From contig CAIIXF020000005.1 of NCBI GenBank assembly GCA_903813345.2, positions 11,971,375-12,035,374 on the forward strand: a stretch of 64,000 nucleotides of DNA, given 5' to 3'. Positions 22,150 to 35,400 of this stretch are shown here, piece after piece; the first letter of the stretch is position 1, and every line of letters starts with the position of its first letter. Source of the stretch: Owenia fusiformis (Eukaryota; Annelida; Polychaeta; Sabellida; Oweniidae). The notes under the pieces were generated by a model. The model worked only from the letters and a program-made list of their open reading frames with translations. It made no database searches and was not told where the DNA came from. The position numbers and the translations under genes are program-made.

Positions 22150-22584
22150 ATTTCATAATTCAATTTCCATTCGATAAATCAGCTTTCTTTCAAACTATAA
22201 ATTGGAATGCCTTTGGCACGACCTGTATATTGGCACCAGTATATCAAATTCGATTATCTTTTGTCATTTTAAAATTAATATCTGATATTTTACTTTTATT
22301 TTATTTCATTTGGCATTCATCAACAGAGGGAACTTTAATCATAGAATAATATCAAAACACAGCGTTGCCAAGGACTGTTATGAAGAATAGTTCTGGTAAT
22401 AAATAAAATATACCTTTCCATATTTGGCGTTCAATTTGACTTCTGGCATCATGATGAATGACCAAATTTTATGTTTTACATACCAGTATTTCAGTTTTAT
22501 TTTTAACAATTTTAATATTTAGAAATAAGTAAGGGGGGTATCCTGCACGTCTCAAAGACCTAGAAGGACGAAGAGTTACCGAGG

Positions 22585-25500
22585 ATGACAACCGAAAACA
22601 ACAGACCAAATATGAGTGCAGATGACAATGAACGACATGCCAAAAAGAAAGCAGACGTTGAATCGAGTAAAAATGAAACAAATGAACTAAATGATGATTC
22701 GAATGAAAATACAAAATCAGTCGATCAGACTCCTGTGAATGCCAGGGCAAATGATAATGAGAGTAATCGTAATGAAAATCAAGTGAATACCCAAGCTGAT
22801 GAAATTCTTGAAGATGAAGATGAAAAACAATTGAGTTCTGATACCGAACACGATGATACGCACAATGTCCAAAAGAATAGTAAAAATAATAGTAATAACT
22901 ACGATAACAACGATGAGCTTAGCACTAAGAACGACGAGACCAAATCAAAAAGTAATTCAAAGAGTGAGAGCAACTCAAAAGAGTATAAAACAGCTGAAAA
23001 CAAATCAAACAACGAAAATGATCACGGGGATACAAAACAATCAAGTAAAAATAACAGACGAAAGAAATCTTCGAAATCAGGGAGACCAATTCAAGATCAG
23101 AAAAGACCAGGTGAATTATCTGGAAGTCCCTACGCAAGCATGCAATCTCTAGCTTCTGGTGATGCAAGACCAAAGTCGTCCAGTTCAAAAAGGCAACGCA
23201 AAAAGCAATCGATGTCAAGTCAATCCGGTCAGAATAATGACAGTGCAAGGACACGTGAAGATGACCATGAAAATCAATCTGATATGAATGTCAAACCAAC
23301 TAGGATTAGACCTAAAACTAAAGGGCGAAAACCAAGAGATAAAAGCCACAAGGAAAATAGAATTGTGGATGAAGAAAGCATTGATGACAATCAAAGTAAC
23401 AATAGCGGAGGAAGCAGAAATGATAATGACGAGCCTCGTTCTAAATCTAGCAGACGACATGGACAAGGACGTCGTGAACGTGCCAAGTCTGCCCCCGCAG
23501 GCGGAGGTAATGATGCGTGCATTGCTTCCATATCTGGTATTTGGGATATTCCTTCTGCTTTTGGTGTTTTGGTCTATATCACTATCGCAGAGTACACGCA
23601 TTCTGATACTCATCCCATCTTTCTGTTTTTACTAGCAATATCCTTCTAGAAAAAACTGTCAGAAGGAGTACATCTTTATTCTCCTTTGTAGGGCCCTCCA
23701 TGTTAGTAAGATTTGTATGCTTAGCATAATCTTTGACTTTCAGCTCTTTGATGAATCAATTGTATGTTATCGCACCACAATACTAGATAGTATCCTGTAT
23801 CATGTACATTGTAGGATCATGCATTTCATTATTGTAGGTCGAAATACTATCAATAGCTTTTCAAATGCATTACAAGAAATCGTGCCCTTTAAATGGAAAT
23901 ATCTCATACAGAATTGTTTAAATATCTTACAGACCAATTCATGACGTACTGTGACATTCCTTTATCTTGTACTCATGATGAATTTGCATTTAGAATCGCT
24001 TATTTTGCTTTGTAGAACTCTGGTTAGAAGTAAATATGTTATTTCGAGTTTACTAAGAATTCCAAATTCAATCATTTTATTTTTGGTTAAATTGTTTAAA
24101 TTAAGACCTTATTACAAATACAATTAATTCAAGTAAATTAACTGAATGTGAAATGTAAATCCATTCAACTTTATAGTGATCATGGGATAAATCTGTATTT
24201 CACTTATCAGGATAGATATAGAATTTATCACCAGGAAAATATTAATATCTTCCCATGGACACTCTCGATATGTATCAATTTTCTATTGTGGCATACCCTA
24301 TACCGATTCCCTCCCAGTGCATTTGATAGTTGAACGTTGATGTTTGAAATTGTTAAATGTCATATCATTCTTAATTGTTATTTCTCTCTGTTTCAGTTAG
24401 AACCAAACAACCAACGTAAGTAAATTTTACATCTTCAAATGTATCAATCGAAAAGTAACAAATCAAACAAACAAATAAACAAACGAGCAACCCATTAATC
24501 AATCAACCAATCTGACCAAGTAACGAAAAATAAAATAAAATCAATTAATAATTTTGCTAAATTGGGATATGATTTCAAGCAATCTAATACGACCAATCAA
24601 TTAAATATGTAATTCCATTTAATCAAGTCGATGAAGTATTGTCTCACATTGTGACAAAATACCATCCCCTCCCACGTCCCTGTTCTCCCTCTCTTTATCT
24701 GAATAATTATATACATTCAGACATGGCATGTATTATTTCAGGACTCGCATCCTTCAACTCTCCAAACATAAAGATTCAAAGTCAGTATGGCTTACCAGAT
24801 TCGGGTAAGTTACTTATAATTATCCCAAGTGTATTTATAAGTGAATGCCAATTTAAAATTAACATAAACAAAACAAGTAAAAAATAAATACAGTGTCCGA
24901 GTGGCATTAAAAATAGAAGGGATAAAGATGACCTCTTAGAATAATCATTTCGTTACATTTTCTATCCCTTTAACTTTACAAATAAATAGAACACTATAGG
25001 ATAAATGTAACCCATATTAACAATATTGATGAAGAGAAAATACTTAAAATACACACAGAAGCCTATACAATGCATGTTGTTTGCTATTACAGAGAGAGCA
25101 TAATGTGGGGTACCCAAGATATGCTGTGGGATATCTCAGACGCAGCTATGGCAGCTGATCCCACAGGAAGAGTGATGGATCTCAGTATACCAAAGAAAAA
25201 TTTTCAAACTGGAAATAAAGTAAACAGGTTAGTAACTGTTCAGAGTTTCAAATAAGATTTGAAGCTTTCTCTTGAATTTTTTAAACTTTGGCAGAAAATT
25301 CTAATTTCAACTTTTCTAATAAAATAATGTTCAGAACTGAGACATCAAAATTTTACTCCTGCATTCATGATCAGGTACTGAAATGAAGAAGACAACCATG
25401 ATGAAACCAACCATACTGAGCAACAATATATATTGTGTCAAGTATCTGAGCTCCCTTCACATACTATATTCCTATTCAGTCTATTCCTATTCTATCTGTC

Positions 25501-27818
25501 TTATCCAAATGCCACTGGTACCAGTCAAAAGTGTTCACATTGGCAGATGTTCACATTTCAAGATTTTTTAAATATGGGAATTAATTTGAAAAAACAAAGT
25601 GACAAAGAAAAGGTGATCACATTTTGGCAGATGTTCAGATTAGAGAGATGTTCAGATATCCAGATTTTACTGTTCAGTACTTCTGTAAATAAACAGATGT
25701 AGTTTGTGAAGTGTGGGTACACATAAGCATGATTCAAAACAATACTAGAGGACCCTCTTCTATATATTTCAGACCGGAGTTTGTCTACAGTTGTGGCAGA
25801 TCCTCTGAAATCTGGGATGTCAGCCCATTGGCCAAGAAGGCAGAATGCAGTGATAGGGTGGGGTTCTTGGCCAACCCTAAACAGGCACCAGCTGCCTATA
25901 AAGAAAAGGAGGGCAGGTAAGAGTCAATACTCAATCAATTTATGAGGAGCGTAGCCAGAATCTATGCCATATCATTAGTGTTCCAAATCCTTTACATATA
26001 CAATAAATACTTCAAACTCTCTTACCTATATTGTAACATTGTTACTAGTATTCAAGATCCTTTCACCTAAATATTTCAAACTCCTTTCCTATACAATAAC
26101 ACCTGTATTCCAGATTCTTTCATCTATAAATACAATAAAACATTTCAAACTCCTTACCTATGCAATACCATTTGTATCCCAAAGTCTCTTTTCTACTAGT
26201 ATATTTTAAACACTCTGGCCAATACAATTACATTAATATTCAAGATCTTTTCACCTATACGTATAATAAATAAAAAATTTCAAACCTTCTTACCGATACA
26301 ATAACATTTGTATTCCAGGCCCCCTTACCTATACAACAATAACATTTGTATTCCAGGCCCTCTTAGCTATACAATAACATTTGTATTTCAGACCCTCTTA
26401 CCTATACAATAAATTTTTTATTCCAGACCCTCTTACCTATACAATAACATTTGTTTTCCAGACCCTCTTACCTATACAATAACATTTGTATTCCAGACCC
26501 TCTTACCTATACAATAACATTTGTATTCCAGACCCTCTTACCTATACAATAACATTTGTATTCCAGACCCTCTTACCTATACAATAACATTTGTATTCCA
26601 GACCCTCTTACCTATACAATAACATTTGTATTTCAGACCCTCTTACCTATACAATAACATATGTATTCCAGGCCCTCTTACCTATACAATAACAATTGTA
26701 TTCCAGGCCCTCTTACCTATACAATAACATTTGTATTCCAGACCCTCTTACCTATACAATAACATTTGTATTCCAGACCCTCTTACCTATACAATAACTT
26801 TTGTATTCCAGACCCTCTTACCTATACAATAAAATTTTTATTCCAGACCCTCTTACCTATACAATAACATTTGTTTTCCAGACCCTCTTACCTATACAAT
26901 AACATTTGTATTCCAGACCCTCTTACCTATACAATAACATTTGTATTCCAGACCCTCTTACCTATACAATAACATTTGTATTCCAGACCCCCTTACCTAT
27001 ACAATAACATTTGTATTTCAGACCCTCTTATCTATACAATAACATTTGTATTCCAGGCCGTCTTACCTATACAGTAGTGGTAGAGTCAGCCCTTTATGGA
27101 AGGTCCACCCTGCAGCAAAAAGTTGTGGAGAAAGGGAAAGAACAATGGGTCTTGCACGACCAAAAATGCCCCACCAGAGTTTCACCGGTGCTAAGCCAAT
27201 TGCTACGATCATCCCAAGACCTGCCCTCAGTGCCAGGTGTACCGACAGGTTGGAGACCCTGGCCGAGTCTAAAAATAGATCCGAGGGGCCCTTCAGGGAA
27301 CCAATGTGGCCAGTAAGTCATTGATAAGGTCGATTCAAAATACTGATTTCCGAGTACATGTATAACCATAAAAATCCATGAAATCACATCCCAAGTCATA
27401 ATGAACATTGTTAGCTACTAATTATATTCTCATTTAAATGAATATGAGAGATTATTTGAGTGCCCTGTGGAATGTGACATAGCGAGAGTTGAATGTTTAA
27501 CTAACATTCTAGTTTCCTTACTTCTAGGTATCAGATAGAGCAAAGACAGCACAACCCTCAAACAGATCCCTTGAACTGGCCAAACCTAAATCATTGGCGG
27601 AGGGATATATCCCAGAAAGAGGAGTGGAGTGGCCTGTTACCAGGGGAGCTAAGAAAGCTATCGCTAGTGCCCGAACCACTGCATTATCAGAGCCTATAGT
27701 ACGGGCATCCATGGACCATGTGCAATTTGACCCTGATGCTTTCTTAGTTTCCCCCTTAGCTTTGAAGGCTCGATGTGCTCCTAGGATAGAGGAACTCTCC
27801 CAACCTATACAAAGATAA
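22585..27818 (+). CDS. THEG: THEG-repeat protein (sperm microtubule-associated protein family)
   Basis: Seven exons in phase (22585-23506, 24397-24415, 24742-24804, 25093-25227, 25773-25916, 27057-27312, 27528-27818) encode 609 aa. The start is fixed by an in-frame TAG 24 nt upstream. Residues 1-307, all in exon 1, are disordered and rich in Asn, Ser, Lys and Asp. Residues 315-609 carry degenerate THEG repeats: RILQLSKHK, LWDISDAAM, IWDVSPLAKKA with LANPK, LWKVHPAAKS with LARPK, and MWPVSDRAKTA with LAKPK. Vertebrate THEG (SPMAP2) and THEGL are made in haploid spermatids and associated with sperm microtubules, so a testis or ciliary role is inferred. The second exon is only 19 nt, yet its phases are needed to reach RILQLSKHK in frame. 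The intron before exon 6 ends in a 35-bp splice-acceptor array. If exon 1 were not spliced, its frame would stop at 23649 after a hydrophobic tail, giving 354 aa. Confidence 0.85.
25975..26283. repeat. Decayed part of the THEG intron array
   Basis: Diverged versions of the 35-bp unit (CCTATACAATAACACCTGTA, TTCAAACTCCTTACC, TTCAAGATCTTTTCACC) precede the homogeneous array. Spacing is irregular. This gradient fits an older edge of an expanding tandem array. Confidence 0.7.
26284..27076. repeat. 35-bp tandem array copying the exon 6 splice acceptor
   Basis: Twenty-two acceptor-like sites end at 35-bp spacing from 26318 to 27056, with one 3-bp insertion. Each unit holds ATAAC (branch-point-like), TTGTATTCCAG and then ACCCTCTTACCTATACAATA. 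The last site is the real acceptor, and THEG exon 6 itself begins GCCGTCTTACCTATACAGTA. The unit therefore equals the end of the intron plus the first ~20 bases of the exon. Variant units recur in the same order 420 bp (12 units) apart, at 26401 and 26821, which indicates block duplication. On the minus strand each unit reads TATAGGTAAGAGG, a near-consensus donor. Confidence 0.95.
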
Positions 27819-29496: not shown

Positions 29497-32400
29497 TCAG
29501 GTTGTTTCCATGTTGGATGATTTGTCCTCCTTTGACTTCAAATATTCTTCATATTGTTCAGGTATTCCTTTAAAAGTCTTAATCTTTTTACGAATCTGAG
29601 CTGGGGTGTCCTGGTAATAGTTTTTGTCATCTCGAGCCATTTTCTGAAACAAATGATTTCAATTTAGTAGGCTTGTGTGTTGTGTACAGTCATTTTATTT
29701 CCATTCAGTATTCTCCACTCAGTTCTAGTCAATTTGTATCCAAGTAAAATTAAACCACAGGTTCTTTTTATGTCAAAATGCAAAAACGAGAAATACAGCG
29801 ACTACAAGAATTGCCAAATCCCACTAAACAAAACTTAATCAAAATTTTATCAAATCAAATCCATCCATCAGTATTTGAGTTATTCCCCAGAGATGATGGG
29901 ACAAATGAACAAAGGAACAAATGACTGACAAGCAGACAGTTTCTTTACTTTTCAATTTCTACTTGAAATTTGTTCAGTGAGATATGACAACGTTCAAAAA
30001 CTTTAAGTGATGTGTAAATTTTTCACACAGTATTTTGAACTACACAGTAAGTAATTAATTATCCCGAACTCCTTACTTCATACCTTATAATTTTCTCCAT
30101 AAGTTTCCATCATATAAATACAGTATCTGACCTCAGGTTGCGAAAGACGCATTGTTTTCTTTTTCACAACACTAGCCCTACTTTCCATTTCTGTAAGAAG
30201 ATAAAGTGTGGTAAATATAACTAGATAATGGCAACTCCGCGGAGTAGCAAATCCCAACGAACAAAATATCAATTACCGAATTCCAATCAATTATACTCAT
30301 TACTTCATTGGTTAAAATTGAAAAATTTAGATTTTAGAATTGCGAATTCCTGCAAAGCAGCCATTTTGAATTTTCTGAGGTACAAATCTGAAAAATAATA
30401 GCATAATTGTGATCTACTCCAAATTTCCTTCAATTTGAGTATAATATAGCCATACTTTGAAGGGATCGAAAAATGATTGCGAAATCGTACATTAGACAGC
30501 CATTTTGAATTTTACGAGGCTCGAATCAGAAAAAAGATACAATATTTGCAATCTACTCTTAATTGCCTTTCATTTGAGTATAATAAAGCTATACTTCAGA
30601 AAGATCTAAAAATTAGCGAAAATTTCTGTTTTCCTGACCCCCCATACACGGCCCCTGGGGGTCAGGATGAAAAACACGGAATATATGTGAAATAGATAGA
30701 TGTTGCAAATATACTACCAAAATTTCAAACAATAATATAAATTACTTTGGTTTAGAATGAAAAATTTATGATTTTAGCGAAAAAGTCCCTTCATTTTTTA
30801 AGCGGCGGCCATCTTGAAAAATTTTTTTTTAGCGTAAAACTATTCATCAATATACATCTTTCCACCAAAAATAAAGAAAATCCGTCTACTAATATTTGAG
30901 TTATCTTCCGGACGGACGGACGGACTGACTGACTGACGGACGGACGGAGGGCTTCACTATATCCCTACCGAACTTCGTTCGTTGGGATAATTAGCTTAGG
31001 CTAATTAGTGGTGTCCAATTATCAGTTGTTCAGTTGCAATTTTGGAATGGTTTAAACGGATATTCCTTGCCAGACCATTTCTATATAAACTAGACAAAAG
31101 CAATGCCAAAGCGTAGCAAATCCCATCAAAGTCTATTGCAAAAATGGCAGCCATTTTTCAAAATGACCACCTTCTACCAAAAGTGTCATTAGACAGCAGA
31201 AGAAGTGAATAGCTCCCATAATTCTTTCATTTTTCTATCGTATTCGGGGATTCCCCATTACATCATGTCCAATCAAATTTCAGGATGCAATCAAGTGATC
31301 AATCATGAGCACGTGCTCTCTCAGGGCCGCGCATGCTCAAAGTAAAATTTGAAATTTTCGAAATGGCGTTAACATCAGTTCAATATCATCATTTTAAACC
31401 TACGGTAAGACTATTGAAGTTGCTCAATCCAAACTTGTAGAGAATACTCATAAAACTACAGCGAACATGGGAGATTCATTTCAATGGCAAATGAGGCCTG
31501 TTTATAAAATTTGTTTTCGAACATGCCAATATGAAATAAATATACAGTACTTTCCATATTTAGCAAATCATGGGATGTTTTGATATAGTCAATATTGATC
31601 ATTTAAAAAGTTGGTACTAATTTCCAGGAGGCTGCCATCTTTCACACAGGAAGACATACAGAATTACTGTAAGTCTATGCTAATTGCAAATTAGGTGCTG
31701 CTAATGGAAACTCATGAATGTTGCATAATGAATATAGACGATGGTTTACCTTCAATGACTCCTGGCTTGATGTTACTTGCACTTGGTTTCCACGTGGTTT
31801 CACCATCATTGGCATGTTTCTCTGTCTGAAAAAAACCCATTAATAAACATGAGATTATGAGTCAGTCGATCAAACTGATGTTATGTAATACAAACTCTAC
31901 AGATAATTAAAAATGTCCAATACATGACAGTCTCTCCAATGATCTCCCCAGCATTAAAGCAAGTGGGCGCAGCACCCAATAGGCTTGCATCCACCTGAAA
32001 ATCCATTTGCACCCACTTGAAAATGAGAAAAATCTTTAAAAATTGGCATATTTTGACCAATTTTGGTCTGAATTGTGAAAATGAGAATTTTGCACCCAGG
32101 TCTCACCTGAGAAAAAAATCCTGGGGATATGATTGCTCTCCACAATGGCGTTCTCTTACAATGTACTTCAAAACATTATGTACATACAATTTCAACACAG
32201 GCTCTGTCTTTGAGTGTAAAATACGCAAATATACCAATAAGGTATTGCTCGCCAAAATATGGTGGTAACCAAAATACAGACCCTTTATAATATTATCTAC
32301 TGTCTTCTTCATAATCTTACCGTATTCATGATCTTAATAGATTTGTTTGGGTCTGCCGAGATTCCCATTTCCCGTAAGTTCTGCTTGACTGATTTCTTTT

Positions 32401-35400
32401 CATCCCAGGCATTTTTCAGTTCATGGCTGAAACATTAACTTTTTGAGTTTACATGTTTCTTAATTTTAACATACAAAATGAGTATACTGTATTTACTGTT
32501 AGGGTATAGGCTGAAACATTACAGTAAACCCTGTCTTGGTGAACAGCTCCCTCAAGTGAACACCTGTGTTTAGTGAACACCACTTCATTGCACATTCTAC
32601 ATTAACACCTGTATAAAATCCCCTCTCTGTAGTGAACACCTACCTACAGTGAACACTTTTTTGTTGCTCCATAGAGAGGTGTTCATTAGATACAGGTTTT
32701 ACTGTAATTCAAGCTATACATATGACAATTTAACAGCACAACTAAAAATCAAATACATGTAGTCTAGTTAGATATATGTGACTAGCAACTTTATAATATA
32801 TAAGGTATGACCCCTATATAGTCCATTTAAAAACTTGTGGTTTTGTTCTAAATGACGCCATAGTTGGCTTCTAGGGTACCTAGGATGCCACTATTTGGTA
32901 TCAAAATAAAGGGGAGTTCAACTTTCATTTGAATTACGAAAATAGAGATGTAGGTCAAAATAGTTCCGACGTGATCATGTTTACTACGCGTTTGCCCATC
33001 ATCTCAGAATTGAGGAGATGGTAGCAAACGCGAGTTACAATAAATGGACGCTGATATCTCAAAAAGTAACCTGACTCCCTATAATTTGATGTAGATCAAT
33101 CGAACCCCTATATGAACAGGTACATTTTGATATATAACACTATGGGGGGTAAGCGTTTTATAGTTGATCACGAACGCCATATGTGCCAAGTATTGTTCTG
33201 AATTTTCGAATTTGCTGTTGGATTACGGTACTCATACCTTAATATGAGGCCTAAAATTGTCTGCTAGTTGGCCAGAGACCATTATTCCAGCAGACTTTGA
33301 GAACAGAATCGATTTTTTCATTCTGCGTAGGGCAAACAATGATTTAAAATCACTTTCAACCCTTCTATGTGTATAAGAATGGTCATAAGAGGCCCCTGGA
33401 GGGCCATTATTACAAGTGTTATTTAACTTTCTTTACTGTAACTCAAAAAGTAGTGGAGCGATTTTGTTCAAATTTGGTATGTGAATACTTTAAGCATGGC
33501 ACAATGTCTAATGACATTTTGGGTTGTAGGAGGGCATTTTGAAAAATGGTCGCCATTTTTACGTGTGTTATTTTACATTTTTTACTATAACTCAAAAAGT
33601 AGTGAGCGATTTTGTTCATATTTTATATGTGAATACTATAAGCATGGCACACTGTCTAATGACACTTTGGGTACTAGGCGGCCATTTTGAAAAATGGCCA
33701 CCATTTTTATGTTTTTTCTCTATAACTTGAAAAGTAGTGAAGCGATTTTGTACATATTTGATACGTGAATACTCATGAGCCTTGCACACTGTCCCATGAC
33801 ACTTTGGGTAGTAAGGGGCCATTTTTACTATACATGTAACTGGAAAAGTAGAGGAGCGGTTTTGTTCATATTTGATATGTGAATTCTTTAAGCATGGCAC
33901 ATTGTCTTTAGAAGGTGGCCATTTTAAAAAATGGTGGTGGCCATTTTTCAAAAAATTTACAAGTACATGTGTGCGATTTTTAAAATTTTTTATAGGTGGC
34001 TACTTAAAAGAATATTGCTTCTTCTTATGACAGCTTGGCTAGTGAGCAACCATTTTGAAAATGGTGGCCTTTCTTATGTGTGTTGTTTTATGATATTTGC
34101 TACATATTTCGTTTGTAAAAGTGCCAGCCATTTCTGCTGATGGGATTCGCTACGCTTTGGCATTGCCGTTGTTCTGGTTCTCATCTGTCTCAACAAAACA
34201 GGAATATCCCAGAATTCATACAGTCATACTTCTCTTCTGTAAACTATATCATTGATTGGCCAAGGGTTCATCTATAACTACCCTGGGAAATGGCCTCTTC
34301 TGGACGTAAAGCGTTGGAACATCTGATATGACCAGTTCCCATGGTAGTGTGTCACCTGTCATTTCTCTGGAATGATGTACACTTTCCTCCAAAAGATTGG
34401 AAACAATTGTAGTACAGTAAAACCTGTTAGTGTATATCTGAACACTTGGCGAATCTGAACACCTCCAAATTTGAACATTTTTTGGTCCCATTTTTCTTCC
34501 CATTGACTAAAATGTTAAAAAACCTTGAAATGTGAGCACCTCCCAATTTGAACAGTGCACAGTCATGTTTGAAAAATTAACCTATCCAATCTGAACACTT
34601 TTCATAAAATATCACATGTTCCATACAAAATTGCTCAAATATTTGAAAAAACCTTGAATGATCTAACTCATGGTGGGGCTTTCTAGGATGACTAAATTCA
34701 TTTGAATCGGATTTTCATGTCACTGTAATGCCAGAAAGCTATGTAGTCAAAAGAACTATAGATATTTATTGAGAATTTTTCCTCGAAATCCAATATCTTG
34801 CAAATGCAAAACCTCAAAATGTGAACACCTTCTAATCTGAACGCTTTTAGCTGGTCCCTCGGATTAGACAGGTTTTACTGTAGGTACAATCCCCTCTAAA
34901 AGTTACTGAAATCACTGGATTGGAATTGGTGTTCGCTATACACAGGTGTTCAATGGAGTAGACGCATGTGTTCACTGGGCACAGATCTTCAATAAAGAGG
35001 TGTTCATTATCGATATTTTTACTGTACTGAAATTACTGGCTGGGAATTGGTGTTCGCTATACACAGTTCAATAGAGTAGACGCATGTGTTCACTGGCCAC
35101 AGATCTTCACTAGTCTAAAGAGGTATTCATTATGACGGTTCTACTGTTAGACTATATCCTATTTAGTCTGAATTATATTCAGACTATAAGGCACCTATGT
35201 TAAAGTTTGGTAATTCAAATGTTTGTTGTTTAAATAGGAAGTGCTATTCAAAATGGCCGATTAGGTAAAATTAATTTGCACATTCGTTACTTCAACTAGC
35301 TTTATTTCCACTTGACAATATGATGTGTTACTTTTTATTGCATTTAAATGTACCTTACTATTTAATTGAAATTTTGTAATGTTTATTTTATTGAAGAAAT

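Follow-up and report, generated by a model that had tools for sequence, protein, structure and literature searches.

Tandem minisatellite copies of an intron/exon border in a THEG-like gene of Owenia fusiformis, with similar arrays at other exon borders

Introduction

Mirages, which are tandemly duplicated intron/exon borders, have been described in the amphioxus genes Adh3 and TnC, the globin genes BflGb6 and BflGb9, and PGBD5, and are reported to be spliced normally (PMC3087553, PMC3902484). Under that name, our literature searches, which covered few subscription papers, found mirages in lancelets only. According to the published description of human ABCA7, the variable-number tandem repeat (VNTR) of this gene has a 25-bp unit that starts with a splice donor and is present in 23.7 copies in the reference; the canonical donor is the exon-proximal one, and an isoform retaining one unit has been seen (PMC5954066). 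In human segmental-duplication genes, minisatellite units of approximately 30 bp at exon-intron borders are reported to alter splicing (PMC2812944).

The selection of one splice site where its neighbours are identical has long been under study, mostly with the help of mutants. As the scanning rule has been formulated, the first AG after the branch point is used, and AGs nearer than 12-15 nt are sometimes skipped (PMC1431707, PMC7317903). Here, we describe a natural case from the annelid Owenia fusiformis, with up to 22 near-identical acceptors at one border of a THEG-like gene and repeated donors elsewhere, in which protein conservation indicates which copy is the right choice. Coordinates refer to the window, i.e. 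the whole 64,000-nucleotide stretch of DNA that was analysed, unless a contig is given.

Results

Gene structure

A reading made earlier from the sequence alone (hereafter the sequence-only reading) had assigned the exons to a THEG gene. This assignment was borne out by matches of exons 5, 6 and 7 to the Pfam family THEG (PF14912), all above the cut-off of 27 bits applied (Table 1), and by two THEG-like chains in the Protein Data Bank that matched the joined translation of exons 4-7, the Theg-like chain 8otz (E 9e-28) and 8snb (E 3e-15). We take 8otz to be bovine and 8snb to be from a sea urchin, both from sperm doublet microtubules. Upstream of exon 4, positions 22564-23646 form a long open frame with many K, E, N and S residues; it has no Pfam match and is possibly an earlier exon of the same gene. 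The THEG-like locus is present as a single copy in the assembly. A THEG-like paralogue was found on contig C1; no tandem array was found at the paralogue's acceptor, where one was looked for, and a single 28-bp two-copy repeat occurred elsewhere in the paralogue locus.

Table 1. Features of the THEG-like gene in the window, and the six arrays that straddle exon-match edges at sampled loci. Exon numbers follow the sequence-only reading.
Feature	Position	Strand	Unit × copies	Basis
THEG-like exon 4	25093-25227	+		AG/GT borders, reading frame; bovine Theg-like alignment
THEG-like exon 5	25773-25916	+		Pfam THEG, 27.4 bits; start residues resemble those of exon 6
Intron 5, given an exon start at 27057	25917-27056	+		Mostly repeat-derived
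Decayed copies of the 35-bp unit	25960-26283	+		Consensus score against 200 shuffles; 67% identity, E 1.7e-19
Young array: 21 upstream acceptor-like sites, closed by the 22nd at 27056	26284-27056	+		TRF, CAG positions
ATAAC-type branch-point-like motif, last unit	27038-27042	+		By inspection, place approximate
THEG-like exon 6, from the last acceptor	27057-27312	+		Pfam THEG, 58.8 bits; exon 5 likeness; donor CCA/GTAAGT
Rival in-frame acceptors within exon 6 (starts 27075, 27078, 27084)	27073-27084	+		Reading frame, isoform scores
THEG-like exon 7, presumed last exon	27528-27818	+		Pfam THEG, 106.3 bits; stop at 27816
CCT theta acceptor array			83 bp × 9.1
CCT beta acceptor array			96 bp × 4.2
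Donor array about 7 kb from the CCT beta acceptor, same strand			28 bp × 16.6
CCT gamma donor array			48 bp × 5.3
VPS4-like donor array			45 bp × 24.7
AAA acceptor array, unit containing the GTGKT motif			118 bp × 13.1

The array at the intron 5/exon 6 border

The sequence-only reading had described a 35-bp minisatellite of splice acceptors in which every unit copies an intron/exon border, and both parts of this description held. TRF placed an array of period 35 at 26277-27073 (22.7 copies, 93% matches, score 1378). Exon-start positions following a CAG numbered 22, at 26319, at 26357 (a spacing of 38 nt) and then at each 35 nt up to 27057, and the CAG was kept at all of these young sites. Each unit consists of 15 intron bases, as at the end of intron 5, and 20 exon bases, as at the start of exon 6. 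Exon 6 follows the unit to position +20 with differences at +1, +4 and +18, and the likeness ends there. The consensus was matched identically by 8 of the 20 regular units, and variation was confined to 10 of the 35 columns. In the last unit, the branch-point-like A lies approximately 15 nt upstream of 27057. A search of the assembly for the unit with up to three mismatches gave no hit elsewhere, all 19 hits being in the array (these counts are lower bounds).

Upstream of the young array, the stretch 25917-26290 scored 129.5 against the tandem consensus, compared with 33.6 ± 5.7 (maximum 51.5) for 200 shuffles, and the match to the young array extended over 25960-26290 (Table 1). The CAG is mostly lost in these older copies. 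Both the size and the age of the array exceed what the sequence-only reading had described; with decayed copies upstream of 26284, most of intron 5 is therefore repeat. Units 12 apart had three variants in common and units 11 apart had two, with at most one at any other lag from 1 to 14. The sharing at lag 12 suggests a large internal duplication or internal unequal exchange.

Read on the minus strand, the unit gives TATAG/GTAAGA, which resembles a 5' splice site; the array at 26284-27056 is a row of acceptors on the plus strand and a donor-like row on the minus strand. The region 26270-27130 folded better than its shuffles (z -5.89, n = 20), with a hairpin that holds ATAAC in its loop. This hairpin was rejected as a kept structure because its stem is broken in 5 of the 20 units. 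The end of intron 4 (25741-25773), with GACCCTCTT..CTATA ahead of exon 5, is similar to part of the 35-bp unit. This resemblance was too weak to be taken as kinship, approximately 1% of the stretches in the window (GC 33-36%) matching as well.

Coding consequences of the upstream sites

When exon 6 is entered one unit back (27022), the frame shifts and stays open, and the spliced message stops at 27697 in exon 7. Entry two units back leads to the TAG at 27075, and for 18 of the 19 sites lying three or more units back the stop falls in the third unit read. The exception is 26357, with a stop at 26364 within its first unit. Apart from this one site, the frames had been given correctly in the sequence-only reading. 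Its further claim that only the last site keeps the THEG frame holds for array sites alone, given the in-frame AGs inside exon 6 (starts 27075, 27078, 27084 and 27090). Altogether, for 20 of the 21 upstream sites translation ends in exon 6, and the distance from the stop to the last junction is then 238 nt or more. By the usual decay rule, a message with a stop well before its last junction is removed, and decay is therefore predicted to remove the messages from these 20 sites.

The acceptor of exon 6

The start of exon 5 (RPEFVYSCGR) and the start of exon 6 as opened by 27057 (RPSYLYSSGR) are alike. None of 37,724 control 8-mers scored as high, and the five residues supplied only by 27057 were equalled against exon 5 by approximately 0.016% of controls; among the 970 controls that follow a YAG, none reached either score. 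This likeness therefore argues that the exon start is old and the array its product. On balance, 27057 is quite probably the exon 6 acceptor in use.

The claim that 27057 is the true exon start is weakened, however, by the scores of shorter isoforms. Splicing could instead use an in-frame AG that lies within the stretch taken here as exon 6, with the exon starting at 27075, 27078 or 27084, which we consider unlikely but the most serious of the alternatives. All 22 array sites, 27057 included, would then be intronic, and the last unit's branch point would bypass an AG 15 nt off and take the next one. Chain 8otz scored 103.7 and 104.4 bits with starts at 27075 and 27084, compared with 100.8 bits for 27057, and 8snb scored 64.4 and 67.3 compared with 59.9 bits; yet both homologues may simply be without that stretch, and the likeness of the dropped residues to the start of exon 5 is far above chance. 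As a check of the method, exon 5 was shortened alike, whereupon 8otz fell to 98.3 and 8snb stayed level at 60.1. The AG preceding 27075 is unique, the array units having ACAATAAC at that place, and by inspection the acceptor of the paralogue is at the place of 27084. AGs within 12-15 nt of the branch point are reported to be open to skipping (PMC1431707). With no more than some 15 nt between it and the exon, the branch-point-like A falls within the range of such skipping, which would favour 27075; the published scanning rule leaves room for that site.

The sites 26319, 26357 and 27057 have an identical 23-mer (-20 to +3). Local sequence alone therefore ties these three sites and cannot choose between them. 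GAR triplets were absent from the 773 nt of the array, compared with a density of 4.3 per 100 nt across exon 6. From this composition, with a GAR-rich exon 6 and a 5' splice site downstream, exon definition is the likeliest chooser.

Arrays at other exon borders

We sampled 80 loci around exon matches (30 kinase, 30 CCT chaperonin and 20 AAA). These were the best-scoring matches of the three families and not random genes, and many of their edges are domain ends and not splice sites. Arrays were counted from 2.9 copies and a period of 10 upwards. The straddling count was based on 98 exon matches (196 edges); a separate tally of edges in the sample gave 156 + 44 = 200. Arrays straddled 6 of the 196 edges (3.1%), compared with 6.3% of 20,000 random non-exon positions, and a preference of arrays for splice borders was therefore rejected. 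They covered 6.4% of the bases outside exon matches and none of the 15,775 bases lying more than 100 nt deep in exon matches.

The six arrays are listed in Table 1; the 28-bp donor array and the CCT beta acceptor are probably in one gene. Beyond these six, a kinase donor heads a 23-bp × 35 array, whose end is 29 nt from the match edge. Two-copy borders, likewise outside the six, were seen at a donor and an acceptor of genes that we take to be CCT eta and CCT delta-like, respectively, and at the acceptor C10:13378984. Close to CCT edges, three short arrays of 2.2 copies also fall outside the six. In a first check, a second border copy was present at 5 of 132 edges, that of THEG itself included.

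At the five borders other than that of the 28-bp donor, the exon peptide matched known proteins up to the exon-proximal site, namely chains of CCT theta, CCT beta and CCT gamma, of VCP-like proteins and katanin, and of VPS4. Exact copies of the 23-mer at the real site occurred upstream in the arrays of CCT theta (five) and CCT beta (three), and the VPS4-like array contained 15 further nine-base donors identical to the real one. No further copy identical to the real site at nine bases was present in the donor arrays of the kinase and of CCT gamma or in the 28-bp donor array, so the local site could decide there. Identity of sites across border arrays is common but not universal.

In the VPS4-like donor array (L093, G000:C3:22612089-22613208), the 45-bp units are in frame and open, and later donors, if used, would add 15 residues per unit up to a stop in the sixth unit. 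The AAA locus L097 (G000:C10:6917093-6918636) has approximately 13 copies of the acceptor together with the AAA GTGKTLLAKAVAT coding stretch, in an array that runs to the end of the examined locus. Two further arrays in the window (30358-30613 and 33403-33825) have units of 139 bp and 148 bp, and a 162-bp array in L041 contains, by eye, similar GGCCATTTT-like words. The assembly consists of 12 large scaffolds of 32-62 Mb; six small contigs (G000:C15-C20), each exactly 50,000 bases long, are perhaps scaffolding debris. Searches for COX1 and GFP gave no hit; that for GFP, run without a positive control, carries little weight.

Discussion

The explanation that we favour, with good though not full confidence, is tandem duplication of the border, tolerated because exon definition picks the exon-proximal copy. 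A 35-bp segment comprising the last 15 bases of intron 5 and the first 20 of exon 6 would have been duplicated head-to-tail, creating a second acceptor, and unequal exchange would then have expanded the intronic copies to approximately 22, in addition to the decayed copies of an earlier set. Selection on the protein would hold only the copy joined to the exon. This copy would be chosen by exon definition, because it adjoins a purine-rich, enhancer-like exon body and its 5' splice site, with no need for a difference intrinsic to the sites. Messages from the upstream copies would mostly be lost by nonsense-mediated decay. On this explanation, the array is probably a side effect of tandem duplication, neutral and tolerated by splicing, and the same process is probably at work at other exon borders of the Owenia fusiformis genome.

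Deliberate use of the upstream copies, with regulated or decoy acceptors adjusting protein output according to stage or tissue, is in our view very unlikely. Such use had been raised in the sequence-only reading and found no support in the array itself, the period not being a multiple of 3 and 20 of the 21 upstream sites leading to a stop in exon 6. The CAG at all 22 sites would fit regulated use, but young, near-identical repeats retain their letters without selection, and the CAG is mostly gone from the older copies. The nearest upstream site does give a frame that is open into exon 7. Against regulated use, unrelated genes bear similar border arrays with periods that are both multiples and non-multiples of 3; at the chaperonin and AAA borders, moreover, the conserved peptide reaches the exon-proximal site. 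That the array or its length is an artefact of the single assembly behind it is more improbable still, given that the differences between units are patterned, that the locus is in one copy with decayed copies leading into the young array, and that similar arrays occur at other loci, although the copy number could nonetheless be off.

The larger point is that border arrays recur across the Owenia fusiformis genome. We give an even chance to the wider proposition that border-duplicating minisatellites lie at a few percent of exon borders, thousands in all and in essential genes too, and that cells choose the exon-proximal copy on both sides of the intron where the local sites are identical. If this is true, the arrays are a natural experiment in which cells choose the exon-proximal copy, an outcome predicted by exon definition and not by simple 5'-to-3' scanning for acceptors. 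Mirages may be a more general way for introns to grow longer and for borders to move.

Comparison with known systems

The THEG array is of a known kind, the amphioxus type of mirage. What is new is that such arrays occur in a genome that is not amphioxus-like, and in its chaperonin, AAA and kinase genes as well. Amphioxus has approximately 19 chromosomes, compared with the 12 large scaffolds here. Provided that 27057 is the exon start, the THEG units span an intron end and an exon start, with CAG at 22 of 22 young sites. The array is also homogenised, 8 of 20 units being equal to the consensus, the upstream copies decayed and the exon copy 3 of 20 bases off. The mirages in the amphioxus reports are likewise minisatellite copies of a border, with AG or GT in many units, homogenised inside and with the edge copies excluded, and are found on the acceptor or the donor side (PMC3087553, PMC3902484). 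Their units are described as 10-72 bp in Adh3 and as 150-160 bp in BflGb6, with 6 and 3 copies, compared with approximately 22 copies of 35 bp at THEG. The VNTR in intron 18 of human ABCA7, as described, is the donor-side counterpart of the acceptor-side THEG array (PMC5954066). Normal splicing and length change were measured in amphioxus, and length polymorphism and splicing effects in ABCA7, according to these reports, whereas the THEG array is known from sequence alone. The repeats reported from human segmental duplications form novel introns in recent paralogues (PMC2812944), whereas at THEG an existing acceptor has been multiplied.
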